A stretch of 51,739 nucleotides of DNA, taken from the NCBI RefSeq assembly GCF_016862515.1, contig NZ_BONC01000057.1:1-51739 (forward strand). The letters run 5' to 3'. Every line of letters starts with the position of its first letter. The first letter of the stretch is position 1. The notes beneath the pieces are model-generated. The model had not been told where the DNA came from. It ran no database searches and saw only the letters and a program-made list of their open reading frames with translations. This stretch comes from Asanoa iriomotensis. GTDB lineage: Bacteria; Actinomycetota; Actinomycetes; Mycobacteriales; Micromonosporaceae. The translations under genes were made by a program, and so were the position numbers. Below, piece by piece: positions 9,057 to 50,257 of this stretch.

Positions 9057-9071
9057 GGGCAGACCCTTCTT

Positions 9072-9220
9072 CGCGGCCGCCTACCGGGTTAGCTGACGGG
9101 TTCGGACGAGAAGGACGCCCTACCGCGCGCCACGCGCGCGGATTCACCCCAGTGCTCGGTTGGGTCCCCGATTCGCCATGTGGCCAGGCAGTCGTCGTTG
9201 CGGGGCGCTCGGCTAGGACC
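9072..9220 (-). ncRNA. c-di-AMP riboswitch (ydaO-yuaA class)
   Basis: On the reverse strand the leader of the NlpC/P60 gene has the conserved blocks of the ydaO-yuaA riboswitch in the right order: GGGGACCCAA (about 9160-9169), GGGGTGAATCC (9140-9150), then CGAACCCGTCAGCTAACC and GGTAGGCG (9078-9105). The last block ends 22 bases before the TTG start. This class senses cyclic di-AMP and in actinobacteria typically controls cell-wall hydrolases such as RpfA and RipA relatives, turning expression down when c-di-AMP is high. The 5' boundary is approximate; closing helix P1 was not folded. Confidence 0.9.
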
Positions 9221-44748: not shown

Positions 44749-45189
44749 GTGGACGTCCTGGTCATCAACGCCGACCTCGGCCCGCTCCACCGGGTCAGTT
44801 TGCGGCACGCCGTGCGGATGCTCGTCCGGCAGGTCGCCGAGGTTCACGAGGCACGGCCCGACAGCCTGATCGGCGTCTATCCGGTGCCGACCGTCGTGCG
44901 CCTCGTGCGTTATGTGGTCACGAGGTGGCGCTACACCTCGGTGCCGGGTTGGTCGCGGCAGGGCGTGCTGATCCGCGACGGGCGCCGGTGCGCCTACTGC
45001 GGCGGCCACGCCACCACGGTCGACCACGTCCTGCCCCGCTCCCGCGGCGGCCGCAACACGTGGACCAACACCATCGCGGCCTGCGACGGCTGCAACCAGC
45101 GCAAGGGTGACCGCACCCCGGCCGAGGCCGGGATGATCCCGCGGCACGAGCCGACGACCCCGTCGTGGGCGTCGCTCACCCAGCGCTGA
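44749..45189 (+). CDS. HNH endonuclease
   Basis: A 146-residue protein. The C-terminal third is an HNH domain with two zinc-type Cys pairs: RCAYCGGHATTVDHVLPRSRGG, then NTIAACDGCNQRKGDRTP. The His in VDHVLP and the Asn in W-T-N are the catalytic HNH residues. Residues 1-70 are a helical N-terminal domain typical of free-standing actinobacterial HNH enzymes. It cuts double-stranded DNA and, within a tRNA island, may act as a homing-type nuclease. AAAGGAGG precedes the GTG start. Confidence 0.88.
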   Translation: MDVLVINADLGPLHRVSLRHAVRMLVRQVAEVHEARPDSLIGVYPVPTVVRLVRYVVTRWRYTSVPGWSRQGVLIRDGRRCAYCGGHATTVDHVLPRSRGGRNTWTNTIAACDGCNQRKGDRTPAEAGMIPRHEPTTPSWASLTQR

Positions 45190-45339: not shown

Positions 45340-46149
45340 ATGCCGAGGCCGAGATCTTGGACTGACGACCAACTTCGAGAAGCGCTCTCGAAATCGTCCA
45401 CCTGGAACGAGGTTGTGCGTGCCCTAGGTCGCCGGGCGTCGCGACAGGCGACGTTGACGGTTCAAGGCCACACACTCCGGCTCTGCGTCGACGCAACTCA
45501 CTTGCCGCCGATACCACCGGAGACGCCAGTGCTCCATGATCAGGCACGAGAGCGCCTCAATCTGCTTCCCGGTGCGATAAGGGAGGCGTCGTCGTGGGCC
45601 GATGTGGCGCGAAGGCTTGGGTACGGCGGCTCGTCCGGATCCGCTTACGCCACGATGAAACGCGCTGCGGTTCAACTCGGCGTGGACACATCGCACCTGC
45701 CCGATGCCGCGAACGCTCGGGTCATCCATCCTAGCTCCGCAATTCCCTTCGCTCGCCAGGCGGCGGACGAGCGATTGCGGTCCGCTGCTATCGGCGAGGC
45801 TGTCTCGTGGTTCCTCCGGCGCGGCTACACTCCGTCGCTCCCGGTGGAGCCAACCCGCTACGACATCGTCGTGGAGTCCGACGAGGGCCTCAAGAAGGTT
45901 CAGGTCAAGACCACGACGCGTCAGAAAGGGGGCCGCTTCCAGGTCGGAGTGTCGAGGATGGAGTATCGCGCGGTGGCCGCATCGACAACCAATGTTCGAC
46001 GCGTCCGTGCCACGTACACGTGTGAGGATGTCGACTTCTTTTTCGTCATTACCAGCGGTGGGGATCGCTACCTCATACCCACCAGAGTGGTTGGCGGCCA
46101 CACGGTAATTTCGTTGGGGGAAAAGTACAGAGCCTTTCTGGTCCCCTGA
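45340..46149 (+). CDS. PD-(D/E)XK endonuclease with duplicated N-terminal module
   Basis: A 269-residue protein. Residues 1-55 and 70-125 are two copies of one module: WTDDQLREALSKSSTWNEVVRALG ... DATHLPP and LLPGAIREASSWADVARRLGYG ... DTSHLPD, each probably a helical DNA-binding unit. The C-terminal domain has GEAVSWFLRRGYTPSLPVE, YDIVVES and KKVQVKTTT, a PD-(D/E)XK active site (E, D, Q-x-K) of the kind linked to introns and homing. Third-position GC is lower than in neighbouring genes, which suggests recent transfer. It lies between tRNA-Gln and tRNA-Leu genes. Confidence 0.75.
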   Translation: MPRPRSWTDDQLREALSKSSTWNEVVRALGRRASRQATLTVQGHTLRLCVDATHLPPIPPETPVLHDQARERLNLLPGAIREASSWADVARRLGYGGSSGSAYATMKRAAVQLGVDTSHLPDAANARVIHPSSAIPFARQAADERLRSAAIGEAVSWFLRRGYTPSLPVEPTRYDIVVESDEGLKKVQVKTTTRQKGGRFQVGVSRMEYRAVAASTTNVRRVRATYTCEDVDFFFVITSGGDRYLIPTRVVGGHTVISLGEKYRAFLVP

Positions 46150-46426: not shown

Positions 46427-46855
46427 TTACGGCACTCTGCCCTGGGTCAACGTTCCGCAACTTTCCGGGAGGCTGCCGGACACCGACCCGTTGCGCAGGC
46501 AGGCCCGCATGGAGAACCACTGGCCGGACGGAATGGGATAGTCCCTCTGCACGCAGGTGCCGCTGCCGGACGAGGCCTCGAGGTTGAGCTGCCCGCTCGC
46601 CCACCAGATCTCGCCGCGTGCGCGGCGGCTGTCGCCCGGGCCGTTGTCGCAGACGGTGAACGTGGCGTTGTACGTCCCGATCTTGGCGAAGTACGCGGTG
46701 CCGTAACCGCCCTTCGCACTGTTCAGCGATCGCGCGGAGAAGTTGAAGTCGATGGCGAACGCCGCGCCGGGTGCGACGACGAGGCCGCCGACGGCCAATG
46801 CCAGCGCCAGCAGCGTGCGGCCCGCCCACCGCGCGACCGATCTGTTTCGGTTCAT
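46427..46855 (-). CDS. Small secreted protein with four cysteines
   Basis: A 142-residue protein. Starting at ATG 46855 (GGGGAGG upstream) it has a signal peptide, MNRNRSVARW then LLALALAVGGLVVAPGAAFA, cleaved around residue 34. The mature part of about 108 residues is beta-rich (GGYGTAYFAKIGTYNATFTVCDN) and has four Cys (VCDNG, TCVQR, ACLRN, SCGTL), probably two disulphides. No family is recognised. It is the only reverse-strand protein gene inside the tRNA island and shares a divergent promoter region with tRNA-Leu(CAG). Confidence 0.7.
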   Translation of the reverse strand: MNRNRSVARWAGRTLLALALAVGGLVVAPGAAFAIDFNFSARSLNSAKGGYGTAYFAKIGTYNATFTVCDNGPGDSRRARGEIWWASGQLNLEASSGSGTCVQRDYPIPSGQWFSMRACLRNGSVSGSLPESCGTLTQGRVP

Positions 46856-46936
46856 GCTCGACCTCCCCTTCGGGCGACGACCCGAATGGCCGTCATCGAC
46901 GATCGTCGAGCCCTGAGCCGCTCGCGTCACGGGGTA

Positions 46937-46974
46937 CGAACATTCTCGAACATCTTCGTACAGTCTCGAACGCG
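46937..46974. repeat. Four 10-bp phased direct repeats
   Basis: CGAACATTCT, CGAACATCTT, CGTACAGTCT and CGAACGCG start at 46937, 46947, 46957 and 46967, an exact 10-bp period. GTACGAA (46934-46940) and TTCGTAC (46955-46961) also form a dyad across them. They lie between the divergent secreted protein gene and the tRNA-Leu gene, where a regulator could bind repeatedly on one face of the DNA. Confidence 0.65.
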
Positions 46975-46986
46975 TTTGTATGTCAT

Positions 46987-47060
46987 GCCCGCGTAGCCCA
47001 ATTGGCAGAGGCGCCCGGTTCAGGGCCGGGAGGTTGGGGGTTCGAATCCCTCGGCGGGCA
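46987..47060 (+). tRNA. tRNA with Leu anticodon CAG but short variable region
   Basis: Acceptor GCCCGCG/GGCGGGC (last pair mismatched), D arm with AATTGGCAGA loop, anticodon stem CCCGG/CCGGG with CAG at 47021-47023, variable AGGTT, T arm with TTCGAAT. As with the GAG gene, the long leucine variable arm is missing. No CCA. Confidence 0.75.
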
Positions 47061-47074
47061 CTGGTGGTTTGCTT

Positions 47075-47147
47075 GCCCCTGTAGCTCAGCGGAAAGAGTG
47101 TCCGATTACGAATCGGAAGGTCGGAGGTTCGATTCCTCCTAGTGGCA
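47075..47147 (+). tRNA. tRNA-Arg (ACG)
   Basis: Anticodon stem TCCGA/TCGGA with ACG at 47108-47110, D arm GCTC/GAGT-like with GG in the loop, T arm GGAGG/CCTCC with TTCGATT. The acceptor GCCCCTG/TAGTGGC has one mismatch and one G-T pair, so it is slightly degraded. No CCA. Confidence 0.8.
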
Positions 47148-47152
47148 CACCA

Positions 47153-47187
47153 CGGGATGTGGCGCGGTTCAAATCCGGCCAGCCCGA
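47153..47187 (+). pseudogene. tRNA-Pro minihelix (acceptor plus T arm only)
   Basis: CGGGATGTGGCGC, the 5' start of a typical tRNA-Pro, runs directly into a T-loop sequence (GGTTCAAATCC) and the 3' acceptor strand CAGCCCG. The acceptor pairs at six of seven positions. The D arm's 3' side, the anticodon arm and the variable region are gone, leaving 35 nt. It looks like an internal deletion product; whether it is transcribed is unknown. Confidence 0.6.
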
Positions 47188-47191
47188 CCGA

Positions 47192-47279
47192 GGAGGATAG
47201 CGCGGCATGGTGCCGCAGCCGGTCTCGAAAACCGGAGCCGGCCGAAAGGCCGCGGGTTCAAGTCCTGTGTCCTCCGCCA
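47192..47279 (+). tRNA. tRNA-Ser (CGA) with encoded CCA
   Basis: Acceptor GGAGGAT/GTCCTCC, anticodon stem CCGGT/ACCGG with CGA at 47226-47228, a long variable arm (GGCC-GAAA-GGCC), T arm with TTCAAGT, discriminator G and CCA at 47277-47279. The D arm is short and lacks the usual T8. It is the only array member with an encoded CCA. Confidence 0.85.
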
Positions 47280-47280
47280 T

Positions 47281-47354
47281 GCGCCGTTAGCTCAGCCTGG
47301 CAGAGCGGTGGCCTCTTAAGCCATTCGTCGGGGGTTCGAATCCCTCACGGCGCA
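47281..47354 (+). tRNA. tRNA-Lys (CUU)
   Basis: Acceptor GCGCCGT/ACGGCGC, D arm GCTC/GAGC with loop AGCCTGGCA, anticodon stem GTGGC/GCCAT with loop CTCTTAA (CTT), variable TCGTC, T arm GGGGG/CCCTC with TTCGAAT. It begins two bases after the tRNA-Ser CCA. A regular cloverleaf. Confidence 0.9.
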
Positions 47355-47372
47355 CACGTTCCTCAACATCAT

Positions 47373-47445
47373 TTCCCCGTAGCTCAATCGGCGGAGCAGG
47401 CGACTGTTAATCGCAAGGCTGCTGGTTCGAATCCAGCCGGGGAAG
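47373..47445 (+). tRNA. tRNA-Asn (GUU)
   Basis: Acceptor TTCCCCG/CGGGGAA, D arm GCTC/GAGC, anticodon loop CTGTTAA (GTT at 47406-47408) on a four-pair stem with an outer G-A mismatch, T arm GCTGG/CCAGC with TTCGAAT. No CCA encoded. Confidence 0.88.
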
Positions 47446-47451
47446 CGCACG

Positions 47452-47557
47452 TGCCCGGTGCGCAGGTGACGGCTACTTCTGGTGACGACCTTCCGGTCGG
47501 CGGGTTCAAGCCCCGCATCGCCGTCGCCGACTTGAACTCGGGTTCAGCTCCCAGGCA
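47452..47557 (+). ncRNA. Structured RNA, possible second Y-like RNA
   Basis: The first 16 bases (TGCCCGGTGCGCAGGT) are identical to the start of the Y RNA at 47594. A basal helix TGCCCGG/CCAGGCA (one mismatch) closes it. Inside are GACGGC/GCCGTC (47468-47473 with 47520-47525) enclosing a CGACC-TTCC-GGTCG hairpin and a full T arm (GCGGG-TTCAAGC-CCCGC), then a 6-bp hairpin (47532-47546). No anticodon arm or D arm is found, so it is not a tRNA. Identity as a Y RNA is inference from the shared sequence and the position. Confidence 0.5.
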
Positions 47558-47563
47558 GGCCTC

Positions 47564-47581
47564 AATGCCATCCACTGTGGA
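47564..47581 (-). repeat. Right copy of an 18-bp inverted repeat
   Basis: AATGCCATCCACTGTGGA on the plus strand is the exact reverse complement of 44506-44523. It lies between the two structured RNAs. Confidence 0.7.
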
Positions 47582-47590
47582 CCAGACACG

Positions 47591-47730
47591 TGTTGCCCGG
47601 TGCGCAGGTTCGGAGTTCTTCCGCTGATAACGGGGTGGTTGCGGGTTCGAGTCCCGCCGTCGGCCGCGGCCGGCGTAGCTCAAGTGGCAGAGCGCCTTTG
47701 ACCGCCGGACCGATTCGATCTCGGGCAGCG
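47591..47730 (+). ncRNA. YrlA-type Y RNA (permuted tRNA-like) in the ro60 leader
   Basis: Ends pair over 10 bp (TGTTGCCCGG with TCGGGCAGCG). Inside, GGTTCGGAG (47607-47615) pairs with CTTTGACC (47696-47703), an exact match to the remembered Ro60-site strand CNUUGACC. The core reads as a tRNA in permuted order: an anticodon-like hairpin (TTCCG-CTGATAA-CGGGG), T arm (GCGGG-TTCGAGT-CCCGC), 3' acceptor CGTCGGC, a short CGCG loop, 5' acceptor GCCGGCG, TA, and D arm (GCTC-AAGTGGCA-GAGC). A loop-capped acceptor with the Ro60 stem replacing the anticodon connection is the YrlA design. It ends 18 bases before the Ro60 start codon. Confidence 0.72.
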
Positions 47731-47748
47731 AACGGAGGGATCAAAGCA

Positions 47749-49320
47749 GTGTCGAAGTTCAACAGCACGAAGAACCGCGTGGCCACCGGCTCGAGCCCGG
47801 TCGCCGCCGGCGCGGTGCCGGCGGGCGTCACGTTCGAGGGCGCGCCGGGGTACGCGCGCGACCAGAAGTCCGAGCTGTTCCTGCTCGCCGTGACCAACAT
47901 GGTCGGCGAGTCGACGTTCTACGAGGCCGCCGGCGACCGCGACAGCCGCTACGCCGCGCTGGTCCGTGCCGTCGCCGTCGCCGACCCGCAGTGGCTGGCC
48001 GGGTTCCTCGGCTGGCTGCGGACCGATGCAAACCTGCGCTCAGCGTCGCTGGTCGGCGGCCTGGAGGCGGCGAAGGCGATGGTCGCCGCCGGCGTGCCCG
48101 GCGGTCGGCAGATCGTCGCCTCGGTGCTGCGCCGCGCCGACGAGCCGGGCGAGGCCCTGGCCTACTGGACCTCGCGATACGGCCGCGCGATCCCGAAGCC
48201 GGTCAAGCGAGGCGTCGCCGACGCGGTCGCCCGTCTCTACACCGAGCACGGCCTGCTGAAGTACGACACCGCGAGCAAGGGCTTCCGGTTCGCCGACGTC
48301 ATCGACCTGGTGCACCCGACGCCGGCCGCACCGTGGCAGGGTGACCTGTTCCTGACGGCGCTGGAGCGCCGGCACAACCGCGACGAGGTGGTCCGGGCGT
48401 CGCTGCCGATGGTGGCCGCGAATGCCGCACTCCGCCGGGCGGCGGCCGACGATCCGGGCGTTCTCCTGGCCGCGGACCGGCTGCGCGCGGCGGGCATGAC
48501 GTGGGAGGACGCGCTGTCGCTGGCCGGCGACCGGCTCGACAAGGCAGCACTGTGGACGGCGCTGATCCCGGGGATGGGTTTCATGTCCCTCTCGCGCAAC
48601 CTGCGCAACTTCGACCGGGCCGGTGTCTCGGACGAGGTCGCCGCGTCCGTGGCCGCACGAATCGCGGATCCGGGCCAGGTCGCCACGTCGCGCCAGTTGC
48701 CGATGCGTTTTCTGTCGGCATACCGGGCCGCTCCGTCGCTGCGCTGGGCGTACCCGCTGGAACAGGCGATCGGGCACGCGCTCGCGTCTGTCCCGCGGCT
48801 GGCCGGCCGTACCCTCGTGCTGGTCGACACGTCGGGATCGATGCACTCGACGTTCAGCAAGGACGGCACGCTGCTCCGCTGGGACGCCGCGGTCGTGTTC
48901 GGGGTCGCACTCGCGCAGCGCTGCGCGTACGCCGATGTGGTGTCGTTCTCGACCGGAAGCAGGGTTTTTCCGCTGCGGCCGGGCGAGTCGCTGCTGCGGT
49001 CGATCGAGCGCTGGAAGACGGACGGCTTCTTCATGGGGTACGGCACGGCGACGGCGGAAGCGCTCCGGGCACACTTCGCGGGCCATGACCGCGTGGTCGT
49101 GGTGACCGACGAGCAGGCGTCGGCCGGCGGCGTTGTCGACACGGCCGTGCCGCCGACGGTGCCGATGTACACGTGGAACCTGGCGGGCTACCGGTTCGGC
49201 CACGCGCCGTCCGGCACCGCCAACCGGCACACCTTCGGCGGCCTCACGGACCAGGCGTTCCGGATGATTCCGCTGCTGGAGGGCGGTCGCGACGCCGACT
49301 GGCCCTGGGCGGTGGGCTGA
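47749..49320 (+). CDS. TROVE/vWA RNA-binding protein (Ro60/Rsr orthologue)
   Basis: A 523-residue protein. Residues 25-345 are the TROVE HEAT-repeat ring (ELFLLAVTNMVGESTFYEAAGDRDSRY, GWLRTDANLRSASLVGG, WTALIPGMGFMSLSRNLRNFDRAG). Residues 350-523 are a vWA domain with MIDAS D360-T-S-G-S364, Thr near 433 and D454. Ro60 binds Y RNAs on its outer surface and misfolded RNA ends in its hole; in Deinococcus it works with PNPase and in rRNA maturation. GGAGGG lies nine bases before the GTG. A Y RNA gene precedes it and the tRNA island lies upstream. Confidence 0.92.
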   Translation: MSKFNSTKNRVATGSSPVAAGAVPAGVTFEGAPGYARDQKSELFLLAVTNMVGESTFYEAAGDRDSRYAALVRAVAVADPQWLAGFLGWLRTDANLRSASLVGGLEAAKAMVAAGVPGGRQIVASVLRRADEPGEALAYWTSRYGRAIPKPVKRGVADAVARLYTEHGLLKYDTASKGFRFADVIDLVHPTPAAPWQGDLFLTALERRHNRDEVVRASLPMVAANAALRRAAADDPGVLLAADRLRAAGMTWEDALSLAGDRLDKAALWTALIPGMGFMSLSRNLRNFDRAGVSDEVAASVAARIADPGQVATSRQLPMRFLSAYRAAPSLRWAYPLEQAIGHALASVPRLAGRTLVLVDTSGSMHSTFSKDGTLLRWDAAVVFGVALAQRCAYADVVSFSTGSRVFPLRPGESLLRSIERWKTDGFFMGYGTATAEALRAHFAGHDRVVVVTDEQASAGGVVDTAVPPTVPMYTWNLAGYRFGHAPSGTANRHTFGGLTDQAFRMIPLLEGGRDADWPWAVG

Positions 49321-49346
49321 TCCTCGCACCGGGCGGTGCGGGGATC
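49319..49346 (+). terminator. Hairpin terminator after ro60
   Basis: A 12-bp stem (one T-G pair) with a 4-nt loop overlaps the end of the stop codon. No T-run. Confidence 0.65.
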
Positions 49347-49368
49347 GGCCCCACGGCTCTTGATCTTG

Positions 49369-49444
49369 TGGTGCGCTCGGCAGGATTCGAACCTGCGACC
49401 CTGGGCTTAGAAGACCCCTGCTCTATCCACTGAGCTACGAGCGC
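49369..49444 (-). tRNA. tRNA-Arg (UCU) with encoded CCA
   Basis: On the reverse strand: acceptor GCGCTCG/CGAGCGC, D arm GCTC/GAGC, anticodon loop CTTCTAA (TCT), T arm with TTCGAAT, discriminator A and CCA (49369-49371). This is a regular housekeeping-type gene, unlike several members of the island, and faces the ro60 gene. Confidence 0.93.
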
Positions 49445-49531
49445 CGGGCGGTGATGTCGCGCCCTGTGTCGGTGGAATTGACGGACAGCCAGGGCGTGAC
49501 GATCTCGCCTGCACATATTAGGTTTCCACGC

Positions 49532-50257
49532 GTGCAGGTGACGAGCACCCGCTTTCTGCCCGTCCTGGTGTCGACCGACGACCGGGCGGTCGACGACGGG
49601 CACGTGCGCGACGAGTTCACGGAGGGTATCGCGGTCGCCTACTCCTTCGGTCCACCGTTCGGGGAAAGAATGATCAGCTGGTCGGATCTCGACCGGCTGG
49701 CCATCAACCGCCGTACCTTACGCCGGTTGGCGATCGACCACCTCTACGACAACCTGCGCCGGGCGCAGATCCACGGGCGGCCGCCCGCGTTGATGCTCTC
49801 GTTCGAGGGGCTCGAGTCCAGCGTGCTGCTCGCGGAGGAGTTCTGGGACGAGCTGGCGCCGCGCGTACCCGGTGAACTGGTTGTCGGGGTGCCTGCTCGG
49901 GATGTCGTGATTATCACGGGTAGTGAGTCGCCGCCGGGTCTGTCCAAGGCGCGGCGGGCGGTCGAACGGGTGTTCATGGCCGGTGACCGGCATCCGCTCA
50001 GCCGTGAGCTGCTGGTGTGGCGGCACGGGGAGTGGCTTCCGATGCCGGACGGGCGGCGGCCGGCGGGGCCGCGGCCGCCGGAGCCGGGGTGGCGTCCCTC
50101 GGGGCCGCGACAGGTCAGCTCGGCACCGGACCCGGACGCGCGTCGCTGGCAGCCGCCGCGTCAGCGGCCGGAACCCGACTATCCGCCGCCTCCACCACCG
50201 GCGGGGCCCCGTCCGTGGGAGTCACGTACGCGTCGATCCAGCGCCCCACCTCGGTGA
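49532..50257 (+). CDS. DUF1444-like protein with Pro/Arg-rich tail
   Basis: From GTG 49532 the product has 241 residues. GERMISWSDLDRLAINRRTLRRLAIDHLYDNL and FWDELAPRVPGELVVGVPARDVVIITG resemble DUF1444 (YtpQ-like) proteins. Residues 175-241 are a disordered Pro/Arg-rich tail. An ATATTA box 11-12 bases before GTG 49532 suggests a leaderless start; ATG 49454 (26 codons more) is the alternative. The tail overlaps the convergent hydrolase gene by 143 bp, with both overlapping ends low-complexity. Confidence 0.6.
   Translation: MQVTSTRFLPVLVSTDDRAVDDGHVRDEFTEGIAVAYSFGPPFGERMISWSDLDRLAINRRTLRRLAIDHLYDNLRRAQIHGRPPALMLSFEGLESSVLLAEEFWDELAPRVPGELVVGVPARDVVIITGSESPPGLSKARRAVERVFMAGDRHPLSRELLVWRHGEWLPMPDGRRPAGPRPPEPGWRPSGPRQVSSAPDPDARRWQPPRQRPEPDYPPPPPPAGPRPWESRTRRSSAPPR

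Follow-up and report, generated by a model that had tools for sequence, protein, structure and literature searches.

The leader of the ro60 gene in Asanoa iriomotensis carries what looks like a tRNA with its two halves in reversed order, which raises the question of what this leader encodes and how it might serve Ro60, the protein of RNA quality control encoded next to it. The window, i.e., the whole stretch of 51,739 nucleotides that was analyzed (contig NZ_BONC01000057.1), was read at 46800-49600. The initial annotation had proposed a Y RNA of YrlA type at 47591-47757. The RNA proper lies within this span, at 47592-47729, and the end that had been given falls 9 nt into ro60. A second Y RNA just upstream (47448-47549) had been missed. 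We consider it probable, at roughly 0.8, that the ro60 leader encodes two tandem Y RNAs that bind Ro60 by the outer stem, with the tRNA-like head as the effector part.

Parts of the ro60 leader

The features are given below, R1 denoting a covariance model.

46987-47446, +: tRNA genes Leu(cag), Arg(acg), Ser(cga), Lys(ctt), and Asn(gtt) of a tRNA array (ARAGORN)
47448-47549, +: second, half-type Y RNA (R1 match of 50.1 bits; same outer motifs)
47592-47729, +: full-type Y RNA with a permuted-tRNA head (covariation; R1 match at 47590-47732 with 136.2 bits, the window itself being one of the 21 training rows of R1)
47592-47599, +: P1, 5' strand of the outer stem, pairing with 47722-47729
47600-47606, +: internal-loop strand GTGCGCA, 5' side of the putative Ro60 site; near-invariant columns in both alignments
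47607-47614, +: P2, 5' strand, pairing with 47704-47711
47619-47635, +: anticodon-like arm TTCCG CTGATAA CGGGG, 5 bp, with the 7-nt loop CTGATAA at 47624-47630
47641-47657, +: T arm GCGGG TTCGAGT CCCGC; 100% of cells paired in both alignments
47658-47675, +: acceptor-like hairpin, 3' strand first, closed by a 4-nt loop (47665-47668)
47678-47693, +: D arm; 97.6% and 100% of cells paired in the two alignments, varying little
47694-47703, +: linker holding CTTTGACC (at 47696-47703), not conserved
47704-47711, +: P2, 3' strand, pairing with 47607-47614
47712-47721, +: internal-loop strand GATTCGATCT (consensus GACTTGATCT), 3' side of the putative Ro60 site; conserved
47722-47729, +: P1, 3' strand, pairing with 47592-47599
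47734-47739, +: likely ribosome-binding site of ro60, GGAGGG, 4 nt past P1 (read from the sequence)
47749-49320, +: ro60, a TROVE and vWA-type protein of 523 aa with a GTG start (Pfam, PDB match, predicted fold)

Inspection of the full-type RNA showed that all the arms described in the initial annotation (anticodon-like hairpin, T arm, acceptor, and D arm, in permuted order) are present in the sequence. The acceptor strands, CGTCGGC (47658-47664) and GCCGGCG (47669-47675), pair at 7/7 positions with one G-U, exactly as annotated, and the dinucleotide TA separates the second strand from the D arm. The outer ends form the claimed 10 bp in the minimum-energy fold, as compared with 8 bp in the comparative structure. 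The adjacency to the gene was also borne out, the gap from the end of P1 (47729) to the GTG start (47749) measuring 19 nt rather than 18 bases. The half-type Y RNA bears, on the same outer motifs, a short hairpin (47486-47499) and a T arm (47500-47516), without the acceptor stem or the D arm. It holds an exact motif match (47457-47479), the sole one in the genome, and its fold has a z value of -1.62. A counterpart occurs in two relatives (L014 and L015), with a hairpin loop of 7 or 8 nt. Both Y RNAs and ro60 run in the same direction and would probably form one transcript, which would then be processed or terminated.

For the neighboring gene, the Pfam TROVE match to the product reached 55.3 bits (cut-off 23), and the search against PDB sequences gave a match at 2.8e-26. 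The predicted structure (pLDDT 83.7, pTM 0.80) was compared using Foldseek, where 13/13 matches with E up to 0.001 were Ro60 or TROVE structures. These included 1yvp, a structure of Ro with RNAs (TM 0.75 on the query), the Rsr structure 2nvo from Deinococcus, and a Ro60 from a Thermus phage. The family match and the predicted fold both identify the product as Ro60. The claim that the Y RNA sits in the leader of a true ro60 is supported by these results and by its conserved place just before the gene.

Further elements were observed. An HNH endonuclease gene (44749-45189, +) and a PDDEXK_5 endonuclease gene (45340-46149, +) lie within the tRNA array. A tRNA-Arg(tct) gene (49369-49444, -) is found just past ro60 on the opposite strand, and the same tRNA follows ro60 in L014 and L015. 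The window also holds a c-di-AMP riboswitch (9063-9200, -) with 70.3 bits, well above the cut-off.

Comparative support and linkage to ro60

The folding energy of the full-type copy was unremarkable (z = +0.63; 150/200 shuffles folded as well or better), and we rejected it as evidence for being uninformative. The decisive support for an RNA structure is comparative, and comes from the covariation in two alignments of different sequences. For the first alignment (21 full-type sequences, window included), 92.4% of the cells were paired, as compared with 76.8% in the shuffles. Both sides had changed in 110 cells against 34.6 +/- 4.9 in the shuffles, with 0/500 as high and slid controls at 17-27. 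The second alignment (33 other sequences and the window) yielded 94.2% paired cells against 76.7%, and 188 both-side changes against 55.7 +/- 6.9, with 0/500 shuffles as high and slid controls at 17-40; its 33 sequences were found via the R1 model, and are hence biased towards it, and were aligned without structure.

The individual helices contributed to different extents. P1 had 92.3% and 93.0% of its cells paired in the two alignments, and P2 86.3% and 89.7%; for each, both-side changes occurred in 5/8 and 7/8 pairs. The acceptor-like hairpin reached 97.3% and 99.2%, with both-side changes in 7/7 and 6/7 pairs. The anticodon-like arm had 83.7% and 85.7% of its cells paired, and both-side changes in 2/5 pairs in each alignment. 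Its covariation support is real, yet weaker than that of the other five helices when judged by cells paired.

A junction between two tandem tRNA genes, with the 3' half of one ahead of the 5' half of the next, would show the arms in exactly this order, and the window copy lies inside a tRNA array. The element could thus be read as a chance or decayed junction without function. In addition, the partial R1 matches (model positions 30-107 or 30-114), tried as further Y RNAs, were rejected because 4/4 of those fetched turned out to be neighboring tRNA gene pairs. The covariation of P1 and P2, which are absent from tRNA junctions, already contradicts the reading as a functionless junction. Full-length matches track ro60 across genomes, and sister copies retain the outer stem without the tRNA part. 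We therefore consider a functionless junction extremely improbable as the present state of the head, although such a junction may have been its origin.

Searching genome contigs with the protein yielded 19 relatives, which are actinobacteria according to the organisms named in the record titles. The same RNA motifs were found upstream of ro60 in 19/19. Counting the window, there are 20 loci, and the motif search detected two or more copies in 17 of them, i.e., in all but L007, L011, and L018. R1 matched upstream of ro60 in 20/20 loci, i.e., the window and the 19 relatives used in building the model. The nearest copy ends 22-60 nt ahead of the ro60 start, by the motif ends used, and the window has the shortest distance.

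As a blind test, one set of 394 genomes of the class was then searched with both R1 and the TROVE family. Full-length R1 matches of at least 65 bits numbered 83 and were spread over 49 genomes, all 49 of which carry TROVE, a family present in 53/394 genomes overall. For most of these strong matches (75/83), a TROVE match follows at less than 3 kb on the same strand. The remaining eight comprise one at 3.1 kb, one near a contig end, and six elsewhere (G330:C7, G291:C4, G101:C5, G356:C4, G361:C1 near 1211120, and G182:C1 near 7011382), in genomes that all carry TROVE at another place. Seen from the protein side, a strong R1 match is near 50/60 TROVE loci; among the 10 loci with no strong match nearby, G031 and G371 had matches of 51.9 and 46.3 bits on the TROVE contig. 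At E 0.001, any R1 match was found in 232/394 genomes, many of these being weaker partial matches in genomes without TROVE. The Y RNA unit is closely tied to ro60.

This position also suits a cis-acting leader, in which Ro60 would bind a Y-like element in its own mRNA and set its own translation or transcription, with no free Y RNA. P1 is only 4 nt from the ribosome-binding site, and the copy is close to the start in 20/20 loci. Moreover, the best hairpin after the Y RNA has a ribosome-binding-like motif in its 3' arm in 10/20 leaders (a count without a shuffle control), and for five of these ten hairpins, the 7 nt that follow include at least 4 T. Such a hairpin is absent from the window, six strong copies lie away from TROVE, Bifidobacterium plasmid copies stand downstream of ro60, and a switch needs no multiple copies per locus. 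As a replacement for two Y RNAs, we judge a cis-acting leader unlikely; it may hold in addition to them. The leaders with the hairpin are L003, L004, L007, L009, L010, L012, L013, L014, L017, and L019, where termination or a translation switch is possible.

The two tandem Y RNAs have parallels on mobile elements. Using tblastn, we found relatives of Ro60 in 88 records of phages and 46 of plasmids, among which four phages and four plasmids were examined. R1 matched upstream of ro60 in 4/4 phages (BRock, pSt2308, Neville, and Frankenweenie), with 52.7-76.2 bits for the best copy. As in the window, BRock and pSt2308 have tRNA genes, ending with tRNA-Asn, ahead of the Y RNAs and ro60. For the plasmids, matches upstream of ro60 were obtained in Rhodococcus (100.5 bits), Deinococcus gobiensis (78.5 bits; YrlA 49.6 bits), and, weakly, Streptomyces (20.6 bits); the Bifidobacterium plasmid has its copies downstream of ro60 (40.2 bits).

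Individual loci showed additional features. The Rhodococcus plasmid (L025, 1784-2452) holds four Y RNA matches in tandem before ro60 (100.5, 67.4, 30.3, and 23.7 bits). In D. gobiensis (L096, 1798-1945), a T run directly follows the Y RNA stem before ro60, as if it were a self-terminator. In the Streptomyces phage Frankenweenie, an annotated tRNA-Pro(tgg) (L027, 2245-2335) overlaps the Y RNA match (2258-2422) before the Ro-like gene, and is probably a misannotated Y RNA.

The outer stem and the tRNA-like head

The strand following the D arm, CTTTGACC, had been put forward as the Ro60-binding site. It is present at 47696-47703, within a linker that varies in length and sequence, and it is missing in the closest relatives aligned, which have CTAATGTTCG (L014), CTAATGACCG (L015), and CAAACGACCG (L016). 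We rejected it as the Ro60 site, as it is conserved in neither alignment. The conserved strands are found in the outer stem instead, with CCCGGTGCGCAGG at the 5' end and, at the 3' end, GACTTGATCTCGGG, which the window has as GATTCGATCTCGGG. These strands are common to the full, half, and minimal copies, including those without the tRNA part, and the GTGCGCA strand (47600-47606) likewise recurs in the minimal and half-type copies. The shared strands thus point to the outer stem as the predicted Ro60 handle. This agrees with the binding of Rsr at the lower stem reported in PMC4726728.

The Rfam model RF01656 (nematode stem-bulge RNAs) gave no match to the window copies at E up to 5. It does match two RNAs beside ro60 in G031 (L061, 2219-2327 and 2346-2476, -) with 37.7 and 29.4 bits, the cut-off being 38. 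The near-threshold match supports placing the Ro60 site in the outer stem.

Sequence comparison shows the full copy to consist of an outer stem, whose internal-loop strands are conserved, and, on top of it, a circularly permuted tRNA with four arms and a sealed acceptor end. The full-type motif filter was passed by 69 of the 119 distinct matches. In these copies, the acceptor stem is paired at 7/7 positions in 60/69 heads, and the loop that seals it measures 0-13 nt. Many copies have an altered anticodon-like arm or none, with the acceptor, T, and D arms of the head retained.

Circularly permuted tRNA genes are processed into working tRNAs in some algae, and ARAGORN called a tRNA in 59/68 heads rearranged to the tRNA order, a count without a control and with arms chosen by motif. 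A functional tRNA has an open acceptor end for CCA and the amino acid, while the acceptor strands here are joined by a loop. The head therefore cannot be charged as a tRNA, and we rejected a working permuted tRNA on account of the sealed end. The loss or change of the anticodon-like arm in copies that keep the other head arms, and the tracking of ro60 by the strong copies, also speak against such a gene, which we deem extremely improbable. An attempt to trace the head to one tRNA species gave no outcome; with the anticodon masked, the best match was Asp in 36/68 heads, and the rest were distributed over 15 others.

The anticodon-like arm was inspected at the level of its loop. A 7-nt loop was the best reading in 46/69 filtered copies. 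The loop finder favored a loop of 5 nt in three copies from phages (L022, L023, and L024), where 3-4 bp with a 7-nt loop fits too by eye. In the filtered set, 43 Y RNAs had a 7-nt loop closed by at least 4 bp, and 30 of these 43 had U36-A37-A38, as compared with 28/99 local tRNAs (Fisher p = 6e-6). We did not accept this statistic as strong evidence; it is weak because the sequences are related and were selected by motif, and C36 loops occur too. The position entropies, calculated for the 38/43 copies chosen for U33 and a purine at 37, were 1.88 bits at position 35 (almost random), 1.09 at 34 (mostly G or C), and 0.18 at 38 (nearly fixed). The other copies have C36, an altered arm, or no arm.

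For two tandem Y RNAs, the mechanism would be as follows. Both RNAs would bind the neighboring Ro60 through the outer stem, and the tRNA-like head, as an effector part open to exchange, would dock or gate a partner. This partner, named by analogy only, may be PNPase or enzymes acting on tRNA. Ro60 would thereby be steered to structured or damaged RNAs. A fixed Ro60 stem with exchangeable heads is suggested by the comparison.

A more specific function can be offered as a speculation that is more likely wrong than right. Some actinobacterial and phage Y RNAs may mimic an entire tRNA, down to an anticodon loop that is often CUNNYAA, where position 35 is almost random and its flanks are kept. They would act as exchangeable decoys or sensors for anticodon-loop enzymes, and pass damaged tRNAs to Ro60. 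The enzymes, as part of the same speculation, might be tRNA-cutting defence or toxin nucleases, or loop-modifying enzymes. If this were true, an arms race would have left its mark in the mobile tRNA arrays and in the tandem modular copies. Phage tRNAs are reported as an escape from tRNA-cutting defences.

Relation to known Y RNAs

The Rfam YrlA model (RF02553) matched 47610-47727 over its full length (1-114) with 40.8 bits (E = 6.8e-7, 3-kb search). The gathering score of 69 bits was not reached by the window copy, nor was it reached in any of the 19 relatives. The model also matched tandem tRNA gene junctions with lower scores (20.7 bits at 47222-47337; 31.7 bits in L014). As tandem tRNA genes score too, we rejected the sub-threshold value as decisive evidence. 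The YrlA search and folding proposed in the initial annotation thus returned the predicted closing stem together with a match below the threshold; the assignment to YrlA held for the layout and not for the score. The full-type RNA is a Y RNA of YrlA layout, though under the Rfam YrlA threshold. R1, which is supported by covariation, picks up copies that fall short of that threshold, both in Actinomycetota and among the examined phages and plasmids.

The layout is already known from YrlA, in which a Y RNA stem encoded next to ro60 bears a permuted tRNA. The outer stem, the head with its permuted T arm, acceptor hairpin, and D arm, and the place beside the Ro60 gene are shared with Salmonella YrlA, the structure of which is 6CU1 (PMC8394870). 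What is new relative to the Rfam YrlA consensus is the anticodon-like arm and the tandem modular copies, also present in the phages and plasmids examined. The consensus has a three-hairpin head with no anticodon arm, whereas the Asanoa RNA has a fourth hairpin that partly covaries; bacterial Y RNAs are thereby extended to a four-armed tRNA mimic. An anticodon-like arm on a Y RNA was not found in the titles and abstracts searched. The four-armed, multi-copy form looks like an unusual variant of a known Y RNA type.

The known systems also provide precedents for a binding stem and an effector head. In Yrl RNAs, the lower stem is reported to be the part bound by Rsr (PMC4726728), and the head the part that binds PNPase (PMC4726728 and PMC8394870). 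According to PMC8394870, DusA and TruB also modify the YrlA head. The precedents are thus the Rsr-Y RNA-PNPase assembly of Deinococcus and the YrlA of Salmonella (PMC4726728, PMC8394870, and PMC7790460). PMC7790460 raises the idea that the tRNA-like domain of Salmonella YrlA competes for an anticodon nuclease, which the anticodon-like arm makes directly testable. The gene order differs: the Asanoa RNA is part of a tRNA array and precedes ro60, whereas the operon of Salmonella reads rsr-yrlBA-rtcBA, and the RtcB genes of the A. iriomotensis genome sit on contigs other than that of ro60.

Mobile tRNA arrays of mycobacteria are reported to carry HNH genes, and the array units of mycobacteria and their phages, whether on phages, plasmids, or chromosomes, likewise combine densely packed tRNA genes with endonucleases of the HNH type (PMC5966550 and PMC12803027). 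The terms TROVE, Ro60, and Y RNA were absent from the main text of these two papers in a term search. The Mycobacterium smegmatis Y RNA is also actinobacterial and is reported to be bound by Rsr at the lower stem (PMC4726728); Y RNAs of this species and other bacteria were published by Chen et al. 2014, as cited there. Vertebrate Y RNAs and nematode stem-bulge RNAs (RF01656) have a Ro60-type stem as found here, and the RF01656 consensus GGUCCGG AG and ACUUGACC is near the GGUGCGCAGG and ACUUGAUC of the RNAs described here. Unlike the Asanoa full-type copy, they carry no tRNA-like head.
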